Positions 542 through 51,629 of a stretch of 64,000 nt of DNA are shown here, in pieces. Where the stretch lies: contig NC_053404.1 of the NCBI RefSeq assembly GCF_016859285.1, positions 18,201,105 through 18,265,104 on the forward strand, in the 5' to 3' direction. The DNA comes from Xiphias gladius (taxonomy: Eukaryota; Chordata; Actinopteri; Istiophoriformes; Xiphiidae). The position numbers and the translations under genes were made by a program. How positions within the stretch are numbered: the first letter of the stretch is position 1; each line of letters starts with the position of its first letter. The notes beneath the pieces were generated by a model. The model had not been told where the DNA came from, did not search any database, and was given only the letters and a program-made list of their open reading frames with translations.

Positions 542-6875
<6,334 letters not shown>

Positions 6876-9259: not shown

Positions 9260-12200
9260 TCATTTGTCTCTGGTGAGCACCATCTCTGTGAGCCTGATGA
9301 GGGCGTCTCTCTCCGGGGACGGCTTGATCATACTGATTTGCCTGATGGCTTCTTGACAGTAGCGCTGGGCCAGGTAGTTGGTCTGTTGCACGCCATCGCT
9401 CTAAAAACAGGACAAGGAGAAGGGCCGGTCGCATTGTTGTAGTCTTTATCTATCCCAGAACAGTTTACTGACCATTGATGTTCTGCACCAGCATCGCTCT
9501 GCTTCTTCTTCTCAAGATAAAGCACTGAGTTGTAATGTTAGTCACAACATCATTACAACATCAACAACCCCTTAAAAATGCATCACTTAGTTAAGGTGTT
9601 ACAGCTGAAGTTAATGTTTACACGTTAACCACATTTACCTAACTCATAACAAACGTCGATCTTGAATATTCAGTTTTGTGAAGTTTACATTAAAAATGTC
9701 TTACACAGGAAGCAGGACATCGTTTCCTTACAGAACTTGTTGTCTGAGGATATAATCATCTGTGACTCAAAACAGTCGGTAAAAACTTTTGCCCCACCTG
9801 TAATCTGTATTTAAAACTTTTCAGGACCTTACATGTAAATCAAAACACTTCAAGAAACTCTAAGTGCAAACCTTAAGTTTTTTTGTACAACGTGTGATTG
9901 GTCATACCTTAAGGACGTACTGCCAGGCTCGATCTACATCTCCATTAGAGCTGAAGCGTCTCATGATCATTGCATGAAGCTCAGGAAACTAAAAAAAAAA
10001 AAGTAATGGAGGTAAAGACTGGCTGCAGACAGTGATGCATGGTGTATGTCCACATGTGCTAGTTGCGTGATTGTGATTTACAGTTTCCATGAAAACCTGT
10101 ACACGTTTCCAGTTTAAATGATAAAGCTGGTCTCACCTGTTGACAAGCAAACAGGACTGGTCCAGTGGCCAAGCCCAGTTTGAGATCTGCGGCTGAGGGC
10201 TTCCCCAGCTGATTGGCTCCCGATGTGAAGTCCAAGACATCGTCCACTAGCTACAAGACAGAGAGAGATAATCTGGGTTAAAACAAAATGTGCTGTAACG
10301 TTCTTTCAGTAGAGGGAGTTCTCACTTATCCAATAATCCGTTGATGGCCGATGTGATTTAGCTGGTGAACTTAAAGCTGCAACCAGACCTGCTCCCAGAT
10401 CAGAACTCACCTGAAATGCGATGCCTACATTCTTCCCATACTGGTAGGCTATTTCATGAACCTCAGGATCAGAATTTACCAGAATGGATACCTTCAATAA
10501 AAAGACAGACAGACAGTCAACAAAAAACATTAAGTGCAGGAACTGAGGCTTCTCTCTATCTCTGTGCCATTTATGTGGAGACAGAACGTACATACTGCTT
10601 TACAACTGTTTGCAATAAGACTTGCTGTCTTCTTGAAGGTTTTCTCAAGGTAGTGTTTGAATCTCTCGTTCTCGTTCTCCTTGGAGCCCAGCTGCATGAA
10701 TTCACCTGGAAGCACAGTGGGTATCGATTTGGACAGCGGCACACGGTATACCGATGGGCTCTTCCTACCCCCTGCAGCTTCCAGTGTGCACAGATGCTTA
10801 GTGCGGAAATGACTTAAAAAAAAGATTAACCAACAGTACGAACAATTGGAGGGCTATACTGTACCTCGCACCAGGTCCTCTATCACCTGGGACAACACTT
10901 TTAGCACAGTGTTGTTACCGATGCGAGCCAAGGCCAAGGAGGCGGCTGAGAGGATGAAATCTCCTGCCAAGATAGCCTGGAAGAGAGGACCCGAAAAAAA
11001 AAAAAAAAAAGAAGAAAGTGATATACACATCCTTTAATGAAAACTATGAGGTAATATGAAAATGAGGAATTGTTGATTTGGAGCTGATTTTGTTGCCGTT
11101 ACGTTTCTTTCCCCCCACACGTCATTGATGGTCCTCTTCCCTCTGCGTTTATCGGATCCATCTATTACGTCATCGTGCACCAGGCTGGCTGTGTGAATCA
11201 TTTCTGAGATCATAGCTATGGCCCTCTGCCCGGGGATCAAATCTCTGCAGAGGACAAAGACGACACATTTGCAGGAAGTGAGAGGACACAAAACCCCCGG
11301 ATTATGATTCGTAGAACAATTTAAATGCTCCTATCACAAGGTGTGGCGCATCGCCGCGGTAACCAGTGTATCACAGGTCGCTTGTGGGCGAGTTGTGCTA
11401 AGAAATGGTGACAACATTATATTTTTGTTTGAATTCTGCACGTAGGTGCTTGGAGTGATACAATCTTACACTGCTCTGTTGCTGTGGATGTTGAGGGCCC
11501 GGGCCATCAAAACAACAATCATTGGTCGGATTGCCTTGCCCTTGCCATCAAAGTAGTAGTCACATAGAGACTTCAGCTCTTCTTTAGATACAAACAGCTC
11601 CTGTGAAGCAGAGTAATAAAATTCATGTCTTTTATTTCAATCACAATCCACCAGTGTGCGAAATAAACGTCCTCTGTTCATTTCTACTCAGTGTCATTTT
11701 GAGATGAAAACACTTGGAAGGCTCACTCAAATGTCGTTTTTTTTTTATCTGTCACTGGAGCTGCAAAGTCAAATCCAAGCGATAGCAACGCTTTCCTCCT
11801 GTCTCCATGCTGTCTAGATTTGTTAACTAGCCTAACGCTAGCTGGAAATTTGCATTATTCAGTTTTAAATTAACACATGGTACAAGACTCTCCGCATAAG
11901 CAATTTTGAGATGCTTGTTTTTAACTTTCTTTAATGTAACACAAGCCAAAAAAAGACACGTTCCGTAAATATTCACTTGTACGCCTTTATTTACTGTCAT
12001 AAAACTCATTTGGCCAGTACAACTAATATATAGCTGGATGGTGACATTTTAAATATTTTAACAAAAATTCACCTTTTTGATGTCATCATATAAACTTGTT
12101 AGGTCTTTCTGGGCTAACGTGAAGGGGTCCTTGAGCTTTGCATCACTGTGTATCGTTCTGCAGCAGCAAGACTGTAGTGTGGGATACAGCAACCGTGACT

Positions 12201-13682: not shown

Positions 13683-14851
13683 GTTGCCCAGCCGCACGTT
13701 TCAGCTTCAGCTTACATATCTGAGCGGAACCGGAAAACTGTAACCGGGCGTCGGTTGATGACGCAGCGTAACGAGGATTAGGAACGAGGAAGTCAAGAGA
13801 AACACGAATGGTTTCCTTCAAACTGACATTTAAAAAAAAAAAAAAAAAAAAATCAGGAATGCAATGGTAGATGTAAACAACGGTTGTTTTCTCCAGAAAA
13901 TATACCAGCTTTAGTGTTTGGGATAAGGCTAGTAGCTGGGTAGCTAACAGATAACTTAGGTAACTGTATCTAACAGTTAACGTAGGTAACTGTAGCTGCT
14001 GGTTTTAAAATGTATCATATGGGATGTTTTCACGACTAAACCGACCGAAATTATTCTAACCCACCTTGTCTCCACAGTACGGGTTACTGCTTTAACTTGT
14101 CGCGGGTGGGTTTCGGTTATACGTGTTTAGCTATTAGCTTACCTGAACTAAGGGTCTTTTCGTGGAAACTAAAGCATAATTAAAGCGCAACTGATGATTT
14201 GTTTACATTGGCGGCCTGTTTGCCAGTGGTGGAAAGTAACTAAGTAGTTAAGTGCATTTACTCAAGTAGTTACAGCACTTACGTACACATTTCGGTGCTT
14301 GGACTTTACTCGGACACTGCCATTTAATGGTACTTTACACCTCCGCTCCACTAAAAGCTGGCACGTACTGCACTTTTGACTCCACTACATTTATTTGACA
14401 GCTTTAGTTACACGTTACTTTGCTACAAAATTAAGATATAGAAAACATATGATCAACAAATAAAACGGGATGCATTTATGCATATTGAACTACCCAGCAG
14501 CATATAAGTGCCCTAAAATTAGCTACAACATGAAAATGCAGGTTATCCATTAATGTACCAGTAACAAAAATATACATGACACTCCTTTTGTACATTTAGC
14601 TACTAATACTGACAAACTTTTAATGTAATGCAAGTCAAATTCTGAATGCAGGACATTTACTTGCAACGGTGTATGTTTTACACTGAGGTATTACTACTAT
14701 TACTTGAGGAAAGGATCAGAGTAGGTCTTCCACAACTGTTGTTTATGATGTTGACCAGCTGAAGGTCATAGTTTGCCCTTTTTTATTATTTACAGCTACA
14801 TCAGTGCTTACTGACTCGGGTGCATTTAAGGCAACCGCCCTGCCTGTGGAC
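13683..14851. promoter_or_regulatory. Head-to-head spacer, candidate bidirectional promoter of pdss1 and the SELENOO-like gene
   Basis: The two start codons face away from each other, 1169 bases apart. The pdss1-proximal part, including exon 1, is GC- and CpG-rich, as in housekeeping promoters. About half of the spacer is a transposon-like repeat (14224-14738). A splice acceptor (tttattatttacag ending at 14795) just before the SELENOO-like start suggests a 5'UTR exon further upstream, probably near the CpG-rich part. No TATA box is evident. Confidence 0.4.
14224..14738 (+). mobile_element. Non-autonomous DNA transposon-like repeat (hAT-type ends)
   Basis: It starts cagtggtggaaagtaactaa and ends cttccacaactg, so the ends are imperfect inverted repeats (CAGTGGTGGAA against CAGTTGTGGAA). 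The interior wording (tttactcaagtagttac, tactttacacctccgctccac, tattacttgagg) is that of a very common teleost interspersed element. The flanking octamers (ctgtttgc and ttgtttat) agree at 5 of 8 positions, weakly compatible with an 8-bp target duplication. It has no coding capacity. Confidence 0.75.
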
Positions 14852-19683
<4,832 letters not shown>

Positions 19684-45499: not shown

Positions 45500-45827
45500 G
45501 CCCGCGTCTGATGTGCTTCTTCCTTGCTGACCGTCGGGGGGAAAAAAAGCCAGTCTCGCCGAACCCTGGGACTGAAGGTAATGCGCCGTCAGGGGCTGCA
45601 CACCGGGGGTCTCTGTGCCAAGTGTGATAAAGTTTGTTTTCAGTTGTGACCGAGGAGACTTTATGGTTTTGTTTTGTTTTTGGTTTTTTAACTTGAACCC
45701 CAGAACATTTTTTTTTTTGGTGGGGTTCAAAGATTTTTTTTCCCAGATTTTCAGTTTGGGAATCTAAATCCTAACCCGCATTTTGCTTCTTTTGCAGGTA
45801 GAGGTAGGGAGATACAGCTGATGCAAA
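45500..45827 (+). promoter_or_regulatory. 5'UTR exon(s) and likely promoter-proximal region of the unnamed modular gene
   Basis: A splice donor (aag followed by gtaatg near 45580) and a poly-pyrimidine acceptor (tttgcag ending at 45797) frame a probable 5'UTR intron. The second exon runs from 45798 into the start codon at 45828 (context caaaATGg, favourable). The sequence upstream (45300-45560) is GC-rich. No TATA box is identified. Confidence 0.4.
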
Positions 45828-48800
45828 ATGGTCTCACTAACATCAGTGCTGTTGCTGCTGCTCTCTTGGGGATCACTGCTCCACACGGCGCAAGCTGCCG
45901 CAGAGATTTGCCGGGGGACGCACTGCTACGGCGGGGAGACCGGCGATCCAAGACCGTGCACCGGAGCGCACTGCCCGGGGGGCAGATCTTCCAGACTCCC
46001 GCGGCAGTTTAGCCCCGGAGCGCAGGGGAGAGCGGCGCAGATCGTTGGCAGCCAACACCACGCGATCCCGAGTTCCCCGAGAGCTGCGTCGGAAGCCCAC
46101 TCGGCCGCCCAGCCGCCCCGCGGGCGCCACAGCGACAGCGGCGGCACGCGGATGAGAGCGCCTGAAGTTCTACCCGCAGGATGCACCGACGCCGACTGCG
46201 CCGCTCCCGCGAAACAATTTCAGCCCGCAAACGACACCCGAGACTGCAGGGGGATCGAGTGCAGGCTGCCTCTGAGGATACGGCCAAAAGCTCGATCAAA
46301 GTCCTGTGTGGGAGAGGGATGTCTGGCCGGTTCAGAGGAGAGCGCCTCCTCTGCCGCCAGCCAGCTTCCTCCCGTCCATCTGTCCGACAGAGCCGCGCAG
46401 TTTCTGGGAGATTTTCCGGAGTTTGGATATCCATCGCCGGCCGTCGAACTGGGCGGCGCGCCTTTGGGCGTCCAGCTCACATGTGACATCAAGCCAGGTC
46501 TGCTGTCTTCGTCATCAGTGCCATCTAAAAAATGTTTAACTGTTGTGTTTGGATGATCACAGACTGATATCCTTCCTCCAAATGTCCTTATTGCATGCAA
46601 GAAGAGGAAACATGTTGTGCACAATTCGCCCACCCGTCTAACTACTGTGACACATTTCTGGTTGATTGACAGTCTTCTCAAAAAAAAGTTGATGAATTAC
46701 TCTTTTCACTGAAATGCCTGTAAATTAACCACAGGCACCGTAGCCTCTATTGACTTTAACCCCCCCTTTCCCCCACCGGTGATCAGCAAAGAGGGGATTG
46801 TGGTCTGACAGCAAAGGAAGACTTTGTTGACCTTCGGACCAAAAAACTGATGTCTGCGGAGCAACTAGGGCGGCCGAACTGGAAGAATGTCTCAGAGTCA
46901 ATTGTCCAGAAAATTTAGAGTGCTTTAATGTTGGTCCACTGAGGAAACTTTCAGGACACTTGCCGTGTCTGGGCTGAGTGAGCGGGCTGGCTGGGTGTTC
47001 ACACATTGTGCCAGCATTGTTTGCAAAAATCAGACTTTCTGAATCCGACTTAATCTCATTTAATCACTTCCTCCACTGCTGTGTTTACCAGTGAGAACTT
47101 GCCCGTCTGATCCCAGCTTTCATTCTGCATTATTTTCGTCTTAGGTGAGAATGAAGTTCCCTCAGAAGACGCCCTCATTCTGCACCTCCAGCTGGCCAAG
47201 GGGCAGGAGAAGCTGGTGGAGGCCCTGCGAGCCCAGCAGATGATCATCCGCGAACTGCAGCAGAAGCTCGCCGAACAACAGGAGGCGCTCCTGTCCCAGC
47301 AGCGCGAAATCCTGGAGCAGCAGCGGCGCATGTACGAGCAGATGGACGTGGTGAAGGCCCAGTACGGCCTCCTCTCGGACACCGTCAAACAGGTTTCCTT
47401 CCAGGGCCTGCAGGGTGAGCTGCAGAGCTACTTTGAGAGCCACTTGGCGGGTCTGCAGAGCCAGGCCCGCAGCCACCTGCAGAAGTCCTACGCCGTCCAC
47501 AAAATGGACATGGACTCGAAGGTGATGGATGTGGTCGGGGAGGCCAATTTCCCCCAACCTCTGCTGGGATGCCCCTCACCCTGTGGATCAGAGGAGTTCT
47601 GTGATTTTCAGAGGGACCCACCTCAGTGTGAAAAGTGCACCATGTGTCCGCCGGGCTTCTTCTTGATCTCACAGTGCTCTCCTACTGCGGACCGAATGTG
47701 CCAGGTACTGTCCTTTTTAAAAAATACCGATTGTTGCTTTTTCACAAAAATGGTCGTAGCTTCAACATAAAAGGACCAGTGTGTAGGATTTAGTGCCATC
47801 TAGCGTTGAGGTTGCAGATGCAGCCGACTGAAAACCCCTCCACTCCCCCGTCCCTTTCTAAGCGTGTAGGAGAACCTGCGGTGGTCTTCAGGTAATGTAT
47901 AAAAACGAAGGGCCCTCTCTGTGTTTGGTTTGTCCATTCTGGGCTCCTGTAGAAACATGGCGGTGTAACATAGCGGAGGACCCCCTCCCTATGTAGATAT
48001 GAAGGGCTCATTCTGAGCTAATGAAAACACAAGGCTTCATAGTTTCAGGTGAGTATACACAAATGGAAACGTAATTATGAATATTATATTTCTGCCAATA
48101 GATCCCCCTAAATCCTACACTACTAGTAGTAATAGTATCGTTTGAAAACTGTGCTATTTTCCTGATGGAGAAACTAACAACTGTCCTTTATTAGCATATT
48201 TCAAAATAAGATATCTGTATTGTGTGGAAAAAATAAAAAAGCTACTGCAAAAAAAAAAGTGTGAATGGGTCTCAGCTGGTAGTTGTGGTGCCAAATGATG
48301 ATATCACTCAGTGGTTTTCAAGCACATGCCAGCAATGCCCAAACATAACAGCTGGTTTGAAGTGAAAACGTTCTCGATGAATGATCTCATCCCCGATTAC
48401 CATAAAAATAAATAGGATATCCTGGATATTTTAGTAATCATAAAGTTAATTCTTGAGGTAATAAACTCTAGCACAAAATATCAGCTATCTGCAGTTCCAG
48501 TACATAAGCGATGATATTGGTATCAGCTTTGAAAATTACAGTCAAATTCAGGCGAAAACCCAATTATGGATATTTAAAATGTTCTCGTGATGATACAATA
48601 TTGATCTGCATGAATTACAGGACAGAGACGAATGCCTTGAATTACCAAACATTTGTGGAGAGCGAGTGAAGTGCCTCAACACTCCAGGTGAGTTTAAAAC
48701 AGGGCTTTTTGTGCTGATAAACAGCAACTTATTCTCTCTTAATGGACAGAGTGAAAAAGATGGATTACCTCCAAGTTATTTTTATTTTAGAACCGGTTTT

Positions 48801-50452
48801 TCAGCAGTTTATTTAACAACAAATCATTATATACTGAATCACATGTCAGCAGAGCTGTTAGACCCTGTTCTTACACCTTGGTTCCTCCATTCTCTCTGGT
48901 CTTAAACCGCGCAGGCGGGTTCAGGTGTCTGGGAGTTTCTGAGAGGGAGGCGGTGATGGGCCTGTGTGGTCACGACTACTTCTACAACCAGGAGCTGCAA
49001 GAGTGCCAGGCCTGTTCAGACTGTGATGGAGAGCCCGTCACTAGCCCCTGCACAGCCATCAGCGACGCTTTCTGCGGCAAGCTTTCAGAGAGTCGGCTCT
49101 CCCAGTCTTGGGCGGCGAATGTGGCCATTCCCTCTGCCAGGACCTCTGGCGCCCACATCTTCCCTGGGCTTCAGCTAAACATCAAAGGGAAGGAGAGCAG
49201 CGATTTACTGTCAAACGAGTTGGGGAAGGTGACCTTCCTGCAGCATGGCCTGGTGTGGTTGGATCATAACTTTGCAATAAAGCACAGCTGCAGGAACTTC
49301 CTCCAGGTCGGGATGAGGCTCAACGGCAGCCAGGAGGAGGAGGGTCTGGACCTGAGCGGCGTTCGCATTGAACAGCCGGATGGGAAGTACTTTCAGGGCG
49401 TCAGCGTCAGCAGCGGGGTGGAGGTCGAGCCTAATCACACCTTCACTCTGCTGCTGAAGAGTCCGAATCAACACTGCAACCAGAGCAAGGATCTTCATGT
49501 GTACGATATCACCGCTCCCTCTTTAAGTCTGCTCTGGTTGTCTCATGATACCGGCGCTGTTGCAATGACAGCTCAGATGTCCCTGTTGGTGCACTACCAG
49601 ACCAGCTACCGCCCGACTTTCCGTATCACCTCCGTGTCCGACCCGTATATGATCAGCCTGACCCACGACAGCCGTGGGGTGCGCTTCACAGAGAGCGGTG
49701 TGGTGAAGTTTATCCTCCAGCAGGCACTGTACTCCATGGGCCACACCTGCATTCGAGAGGGTTTCTCCCTGATTGCTTATACTAACCGCAACGGGACCGG
49801 CCAGGAGGCGATGCAGGCCTTCAAGACGGGCGTCAACTACAGGGACACCTCCATCACCCTCTCTGGTGCTGTGAGCGTGGACGGCGGAGACACGCTCAGC
49901 TTCGAGATCGCATCTCCGTCCCAGTGCAACATCCGTTATTTTGGGGACGGCACTGGGATCAGCATGCTGAGCCTTATCTGGATTCCTTCGGCCGTGTCGT
50001 CAGCCTTGACTGCTACTGTGTCCAGGACTGGTCTTCCCTTTGGAGCCGTCAGGAATAAACCACTGTTGTTCCAGCAGATCAGCTCAGACACGCCGCAGGT
50101 TCATTTGGCCCGCTCGGGTGAGCCAAACAGCCGGAAGAACTTTATATTCCACGAGAAGGGGACAGCAAACATAGTCCTCAACCTGAAGCTGATCCACTCG
50201 TGTAATATAGTAAAACTCACTTTGCAGCAGTTGGGGGGTCCGGGTCCGAGCAGGCAGGCAGGTCCTGTGGCTCAGCAGGTGTCTGGATACATGCCCGAAG
50301 GGAGCGAGTGGGCCAGTATAGGGCTGAGGGCCTCGTTTCAGGTCCAGAACGGCACAGCTGTGTACGTTACTCTGGACTGTGTCCGTGGACGAGTTAACCA
50401 GATAACACATGAGGGAGGCACTAACATTTCGATCCTCTGGGTTGCGGTGTGA
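45828..50452 (+). CDS. Unnamed secreted modular protein (C-x4-C motifs, coiled coil, TNFR/EGF-like, three TNF/C1q-like modules)
   Basis: I do not recognise a named gene. Coding exons: 45828-46497, 47145-47704, 48621-48687, 48915-50452; in phase, about 944 aa. Order: signal peptide (VLLLLLSWGSLLHTAQA, cleavage about residue 23); low-complexity region with five C-x4-C pairs (28/33, 44/49, 119/124, 140/145, 160/165); Gln/Glu-rich heptad coiled coil (about 231-305); TNFR-like Cys-rich segment (about 363-410, CEKCTMCPPGFF); EGF-like segment (411-437, DRDEC then CLNTPGGFRC, calcium-binding type); second TNFR-like segment (about 450-486, CQACSDCDGEPVTSPC); three tandem modules of about 145 aa (500-642, 650-792, 800-944), each with one Cys pair and ending LSLLWL, LSLIWIP or ISILWVAV. 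There are several N-glycosylation sequons and no transmembrane segment. I infer an oligomeric extracellular protein, coiled-coil trimerised like C1q/TNF relatives. The function is unknown. Confidence 0.85.
47771..48126 (+). mobile_element. MITE with agtgtgtaggatttag ends, intronic
   Basis: The left end ccagtgtgtaggatttagtg and the right end cctaaatcctacactact are inverted repeats about 355 bases apart. The interior has the familiar perciform wording (gagaacctgcggtggtcttcag, gaaacatggcggtgtaac, ccctatgtagatatgaagggctcattc). It lies in intron 2 of the unnamed gene and is non-coding. Confidence 0.75.
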
Positions 50453-51000: not shown

Positions 51001-51629
51001 TTAAAGCAGTAGTTTGACATGTTTGGACATTTTGCGTTATTTGATGGAGAGTTAGATGAGAAGTTTGATACCACTCTCCGTAGATGGTTAGCTTAGCTTA
51101 GCATAAACACTGGAAACAGGGGGAAAGAGCTAGCCTGCCACCTCTAAAGGGAACTCATTACCACATTCTATCGTGCTTTTAAAATTCCATACAAAATGTG
51201 TAAAAACAATCATTTTGACAGTTGTTTTGTTGTTCCGACAAAACAGCTATTTTAAACGGGCTTATTTTGCAGGACTGTTTCTTGACTTGGAGCATTAAAT
51301 TCCTTAACTCTACGTTGGTTGCCTGGAGAATGCTAAGAGTCAAAAATAACCCCTCCTAAAATGGCACGATGTTGTTTTTACACCATTTTTTTGTACAGAT
51401 TAAATGAAGAGGTGCAAACAATGAGTTGCTGGCTGGCAGATTTTCTAACTTTTGGACAGAGTCGGGCTAGCTGTTTCTTTCTGTCCTCAGCCTGCGTGGT
51501 TAGCTAAGCTAAAGTATTGCTCGCCATAGCTTCATATTTACCACACAGCAATGAGGGTGGTATCAATCTTCTTGTCTAACTTTCCGCCAAAAGATGCGTA
51601 TTTCCCAAAATGTTGAACTACTCCTTTAA
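51001..51629 (+). mobile_element. Complete TTAA-flanked foldback MITE (piggyBac-type target site)
   Basis: TTAA at 51001-51004 and at 51626-51629 flank inverted ends (AGCAGTAGTTTGACAT against AGGAGTAGTTCAACAT). The two halves are themselves inverted copies: gttagatgagaagtttgataccactctc and gttagcttagcttagcat on the left reappear inverted on the right (ggtggtatcaatcttcttgtctaac, ggttagctaagctaaag). It has no coding capacity. TTAA target duplication is the piggyBac habit; the assignment is inference. Confidence 0.75.

Follow-up and report, generated by a model that had tools for sequence, protein, structure and literature searches.

Tumour necrosis factor (TNF) ligands and their receptors are regarded as the two halves of a single signalling system, each on its own molecule. 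The question raised by the gene described here is whether one secreted polypeptide can carry both folds. The gene lies on the plus strand, at 45828 to 50452, of a 64,000-nucleotide stretch of the swordfish genome (Xiphias gladius, contig NC_053404.1, positions 18,201,105 to 18,265,104; hereafter the window). An earlier note, made from the sequence alone, had read it as four exons joining in phase into about 944 residues with a signal peptide, five C-x4-C pairs, a glutamine-rich coiled coil, a TNFR-EGF-TNFR cysteine block and three C-terminal modules of about 145 residues, and had proposed that receptor-type and TNF/C1q-type folds share the chain, in a gene that may be confined to fish or missing from mammals by loss. 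The gene is real and under constraint, and has two copies whose gene neighbourhoods are duplicated as well. As for the proposed pairing, the TNFR and EGF domains are recognised by Pfam, and the jelly roll is supported by profile comparison and by the predicted model of module 2; it was not recovered for modules 1 and 3 taken individually.

The four coding exons are separated by three GT-AG introns with matching phases and give 944 residues with a single stop. The joins are supported by the splice borders and by a second copy. The fish's own genome (690 Mb, 1298 contigs) was searched with the C-terminal half of the protein, and two loci were listed, the window and one on contig C14 (59% identity). 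Searches with the helix/TNFR part, module 2 and the N-terminal part returned the same two loci. No third credible locus was found in the genome, the N-terminal search adding two matches with E-values of 0.96 and 6.2. No relatives were found in viral and prokaryote collections, as expected of a fish gene. The C14 gene consists of six coding exons for 943 residues, and the order of its parts is unchanged. Each of the 35 cysteines in the window protein is matched by a cysteine in the C14 protein, which has 38 in total. Three of the five C14 introns are shared with the window gene; the other two fall inside window exon 2, which corresponds to three C14 exons (206, 171 and 153 bases), so two introns were either lost in the window copy or gained in the other. 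The N-terminal part is the least conserved (89/206 aligned residues identical; residues 1–223), and the EGF domain (21/31), module 2 (96/149) and the helix (81/129; residues 224–362) are the most conserved, with 56% identity across the aligned stretch of exon 4. Over the whole protein, the Nei-Gojobori estimates are 0.37 nonsynonymous and 1.96 synonymous substitutions per site; as the latter value is saturated, we regard the ratio only as a sign of constraint.

Each domain of the cysteine block exceeds its Pfam cut-off when scored on its own segment. The TNFR_c6 domains, both also found in the C14 protein, reach 35.9 and 30.6 bits (cut-off 29.4), and EGF_CA reaches 31.0 bits (cut-off 27); in the whole-protein scan, EGF_CA scores 23.4 bits, below the cut-off. 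The two TNFR_c6 domains are not adjacent, with the EGF_CA domain located between them.

C-terminal to the cysteine block, the protein has three modules of approximately 150 residues each. Profiles built from any two modules of both gene copies find the third in six of six tests (10.2–18.6 bits), with none of 1000 shuffles scoring as high and reversed controls at 0.7 bits or less. As any two modules find the third above all 1000 shuffles, we take the modules to be homologous, true repeats. Less sensitive comparisons give a more uneven picture. Pairwise, 1, 49 and 513 of 1000 shuffles did as well, and the relationship is clear only for modules 1 and 2. With single-module profiles from both copies, the numbers range from 0 to 148 of 1000 (0 in all four tests between modules 1 and 2, mixed for module 3), and HHalign with two-sequence profiles gives weak matches (E-values 0.074, 0.0011 and 0.081).

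Two lines of evidence point to a TNF/C1q fold. The profile of all six modules, compared with the fish's own TNF and C1q domains, scores well above shuffled, reversed, CUB and cadherin controls. Circularly shifted versions of the module profile still score 21–23 in 16 of 17 cases; as the strongest matching stretch remains intact in them, they are not usable as a null. Fold models from AlphaFold2 cover modules 1 and 2. The model of module 2 has a mean predicted local distance difference test score (pLDDT) of 58, and all 50 matches listed by Foldseek are TNF-alpha or LIGHT (best E-value 4e-5, TNF-alpha). The putative TNF/C1q topology of module 2 is supported by a moderate-confidence model together with the six-module profile score, and by homology the same fold is predicted for all three modules.

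The likeliest role of the protein is that of an extracellular ligand or matrix component that forms oligomers. We lean, without great assurance, towards a secreted and probably glycosylated oligomer in which TNFR-EGF-TNFR is followed by three TNF/C1q-type modules forming a pseudo-trimer head. Six of the seven N-glycosylation sequons in the protein are located within the C-terminal modules. TNF/C1q domains function as trimers, so the three modules on a single chain may pack together as a built-in (pseudo-)trimer, which would bind a receptor or a matrix partner. TNFR-EGF-TNFR would serve as a rigid stalk, and the glutamine-rich helix and the C-x-G-x-x-C pairs could link chains into larger assemblies. 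A stricter proposal, offered tentatively as a serious possibility, is that this is a natural single-chain TNF/C1q-type trimer, with three protomers on their own TNFR-EGF-TNFR stalk, belonging to a vertebrate family and with a duplicate kept since the genome duplication. If so, receptor and ligand folds would be united in one secreted molecule, and it would mirror engineered single-chain TNF-family trimers such as APRIL-BAFF-BAFF (4zch).

A structural role of the EMILIN/multimerin type, with bead-like modules building extracellular fibrils or sheets, overlaps the pseudo-trimer reading and does not exclude it; we regard it as possible, though on the unlikely side. EMILINs and multimerins have an N-terminal cysteine region, a coil, an EGF domain (in multimerin) and a C-terminal C1q-type module. 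The window protein resembles them in its N-terminal cysteine pairs and EGF domain, both conserved in the two copies, in its long coil-like segment and in its predicted TNF/C1q-like modules at the C-terminus. It differs in having TNFR domains and three modules; no EMI domain was found in the whole-protein Pfam scan (E ≤ 10, filters on), and the modules have no C1q match.

The C-terminal modules might instead be beta-sandwiches of a kind with no relation to TNF/C1q, in which case the AlphaFold2 model would have drawn a common jelly roll from a shallow alignment. Several results weigh in this direction and against the fold proposed above. The module 2 model was built from an alignment of only three sequences, at the pLDDT given above. 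The module 1 model (pLDDT 39) has no structural match at E ≤ 0.001, and its weak matches span several jelly-roll families, mostly hemagglutinins but also phage tail proteins, cerebellin, GITRL and CD40L. With the profile of module 1 or module 3 alone, 28 and 10 of 100 shuffles did as well against the joint profile. Family matches were absent in the sequence searches run: none of the six modules matches Pfam TNF (PF00229) or C1q (PF00386) at E ≤ 10 with filters on, and HMMER comparison of the modules with the fish's TNF/C1q domains was no better than shuffles in either direction. The locus is absent among the matches listed by TNF and C1q family searches of the genome (one at E ≤ 1, the other at E ≤ 0.001), and the modules match no Pfam family except DUF7125 (E-value 0.13, in one member). 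Profile searches of the PDB gave no match for the three window modules or all six, and for the module 2 pair gave only chance-level matches (best E-value 0.087, an ice-binding protein). Against an unrelated fold stand the uniform family of the 50 Foldseek matches and the six-module profile score, which beats its controls independently of the model. We consider an unrelated fold unlikely.

It is improbable that the protein is a secreted decoy or modulator, with TNFR domains that bind TNF ligands and modules that form mixed trimers or compete for receptors. The two genuine TNFR_c6 domains, the likely secretion and the TNF-like module 2 would suit such a role, and TNFR_c6 domains in a secreted protein recall osteoprotegerin and DcR3. 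However, the known ligand-binding TNF receptors use adjacent cysteine-rich domains, whereas here the two are split by EGF, and osteoprotegerin and DcR3 differ from the window protein with its large C-terminal module array. No death domain was found in the Pfam scan. The protein more probably acts in the matrix or as a signalling ligand than as a decoy TNF receptor. That unrelated exons or a pseudogene were joined by chance is ruled out for practical purposes by the full-length C14 copy, which shares the exon order, has open frames and is under constraint, and no point in favour of such an artefact was found.

We do not file the window protein as a TNF receptor, since its two TNFR_c6 domains are separated, nor as a member of the TNF or C1q families, for lack of a family match, nor as an EMILIN, for lack of an EMI domain in the Pfam scan. 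Most known TNF ligands are type II membrane proteins that carry a single TNF domain. The predicted fold of module 2 and its best PDB matches resemble this superfamily (TNF-alpha, LIGHT, TRAIL), but the window protein has three tandem modules on a secreted chain behind a cysteine-rich block and no Pfam TNF match. The C1q/CTRP proteins, above all CTRP4 (C1QTNF4), resemble it in its probable secretion and in its predicted TNF/C1q-type modules in tandem; CTRP4 has two C1q domains (PMC9952994) and is the nearest tandem case found. Unlike them, the window protein has three modules with TNFR and EGF domains, and no Pfam C1q or collagen-family match. Actinodins (and1–4), the actinotrichia proteins of fish, came into consideration as relatives only because they too may have cysteine pairs. 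Within the genome, the family matches listed number at least 20 for TNFR, 21 for TNF and 65 for C1q, and among them no TNFR match starts less than 783 kb from a TNF or C1q match; the C-terminal modules of the window protein are outside this count, as the TNF/C1q models do not recognise them. Among the open-licence papers listed by literature searches, judged mostly by the openings of their abstracts, we found neither a named gene with this architecture nor a gene reported at apbb1ip; fish annotations may well list the gene under an automatic label. If both folds and three tandem ligand-type protomers do share one conserved chain, this would be a new architecture in the TNF superfamily and a test case for the evolution of single-chain heads, stalks and receptors. 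The gene is short, duplicated in the same genome and directly testable. Its features are listed in Table 1.

Table 1. Exons and protein features of the window gene (window positions, 5' to 3')
Feature	Residues	Positions	Strand	Content or basis
Coding exon 1		45828..46497	+	Signal peptide and N-terminal C-x4-C region
Probable signal peptide	1 to ~23	45828..45896	+	Hydrophobic N-terminus and start context
Five C-x4-C pairs	28–165	45909..46322	+	Shuffle test; conservation in C14
Coding exon 2		47145..47704	+	Gln-rich helix and first TNFR domain
Gln-rich putative coiled coil	231–345	47165..47509	+	Conservation between copies; weak periodicity
TNFR_c6 domain 1	370–409	47582..47701	+	Pfam, E 1e-8 on own segment
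Coding exon 3		48621..48687	+	First part of EGF_CA domain
Calcium-binding EGF (EGF_CA)	411–438	48621..48931, split by intron 3	+	Pfam, E 3e-7
Coding exon 4		48915..50452	+	EGF remainder, TNFR_c6 domain 2, modules 1–3 and stop codon
TNFR_c6 domain 2	450–486	48965..49075	+	Pfam, E 4.5e-7 on own segment
Module 1	494–645	49097..49552	+	Repeat homology; poor model, pLDDT 39
Module 2	646–793	49553..49996	+	Repeat homology; TNF/C1q-like predicted fold
Module 3	794–944	49997..50449	+	Repeat homology

The N-terminus is hydrophobic in both copies (mean over 19 residues 1.70, and 1.84 in C14), consistent with a signal peptide. A second stretch, residues 781–799, is nearly as hydrophobic (mean 1.54), but it lies partly in the last strand predicted for module 2 and is weaker at approximately the same place in C14 (1.36), so that a membrane anchor here looks unlikely. 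As many as five C-x4-C pairs occur in 1 of 20,000 shuffles of residues 24–219. Every pair is retained in the C14 protein, each time as C-x-G-x-x-C; in the window protein four of the five have this form. The putative coiled-coil segment is glutamine-rich and helix-like, with a peak period of 3.54–3.55 in both copies. Its periodicity does not stand out clearly from shuffles: 431 and 59 of 1000 did as well, against a null whose coarser period grid gives the real sequence an advantage, and 112 of 500 in a separate test. A coiled coil is weakly supported.

The start codon at 45828 is in a strong context (AAAATGG). An upstream ATG at 45821, 7 bases 5' of the start, has a weak context and a different frame; a reading frame opened there would run into the coding sequence. 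A spliced 5' leader is possible, with a donor-like site after 45577 and an acceptor-like AG ending at 45797, both identified by eye. Polyadenylation-like signals are located at 51294, 51399 and 52180.

The placement beside apbb1ip was borne out. This gene occupies approximately 20.9–36.7 kb of the window on the minus strand, with an RA domain by Pfam, and its PH exon matches APBB1IP (RIAM) above the paralogue RAPH1 in both copies (66.1 versus 59.6 and 84.8 versus 74.9 bits). A plus-strand gene at approximately 2971–6872, with an SH3 domain by Pfam, we take to be abi1, and a minus-strand segment at 9263–9400 is presumably the C-terminus of pdss1. The C14 neighbourhood searched (50 kb) contains abi1-like and apbb1ip-like genes in the same order and direction; the pdss1 exon tested has no match there. 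Second copies of abi1 and apbb1ip beside the C14 gene are what a genome-duplication pair would show, and the simplest reading is that the two copies stem from the teleost genome duplication. The gene would then be older than that event.

The RA-domain exon of the C14 apbb1ip copy (approximately 8280111–8280272) has an in-frame stop in the tblastn alignment, and the other aligned exons show no stop in the sense frame; this copy is either decaying or affected by a sequencing error. Between pdss1 and apbb1ip, the window has a short secreted-looking frame at 14708–15115 (plus strand), with no Pfam match and no credible counterpart in the 50 kb C14 neighbourhood (best E-value 1.1). Elsewhere in the genome, at least 155 CUB-domain matches were found, with clusters on C5 (7.73–7.86 Mb), C24 (8.5–8.7 and 15.0–15.2 Mb), C22 (10.4–10.6 Mb) and C1 (15.8–16.0 Mb), possibly a lineage expansion.
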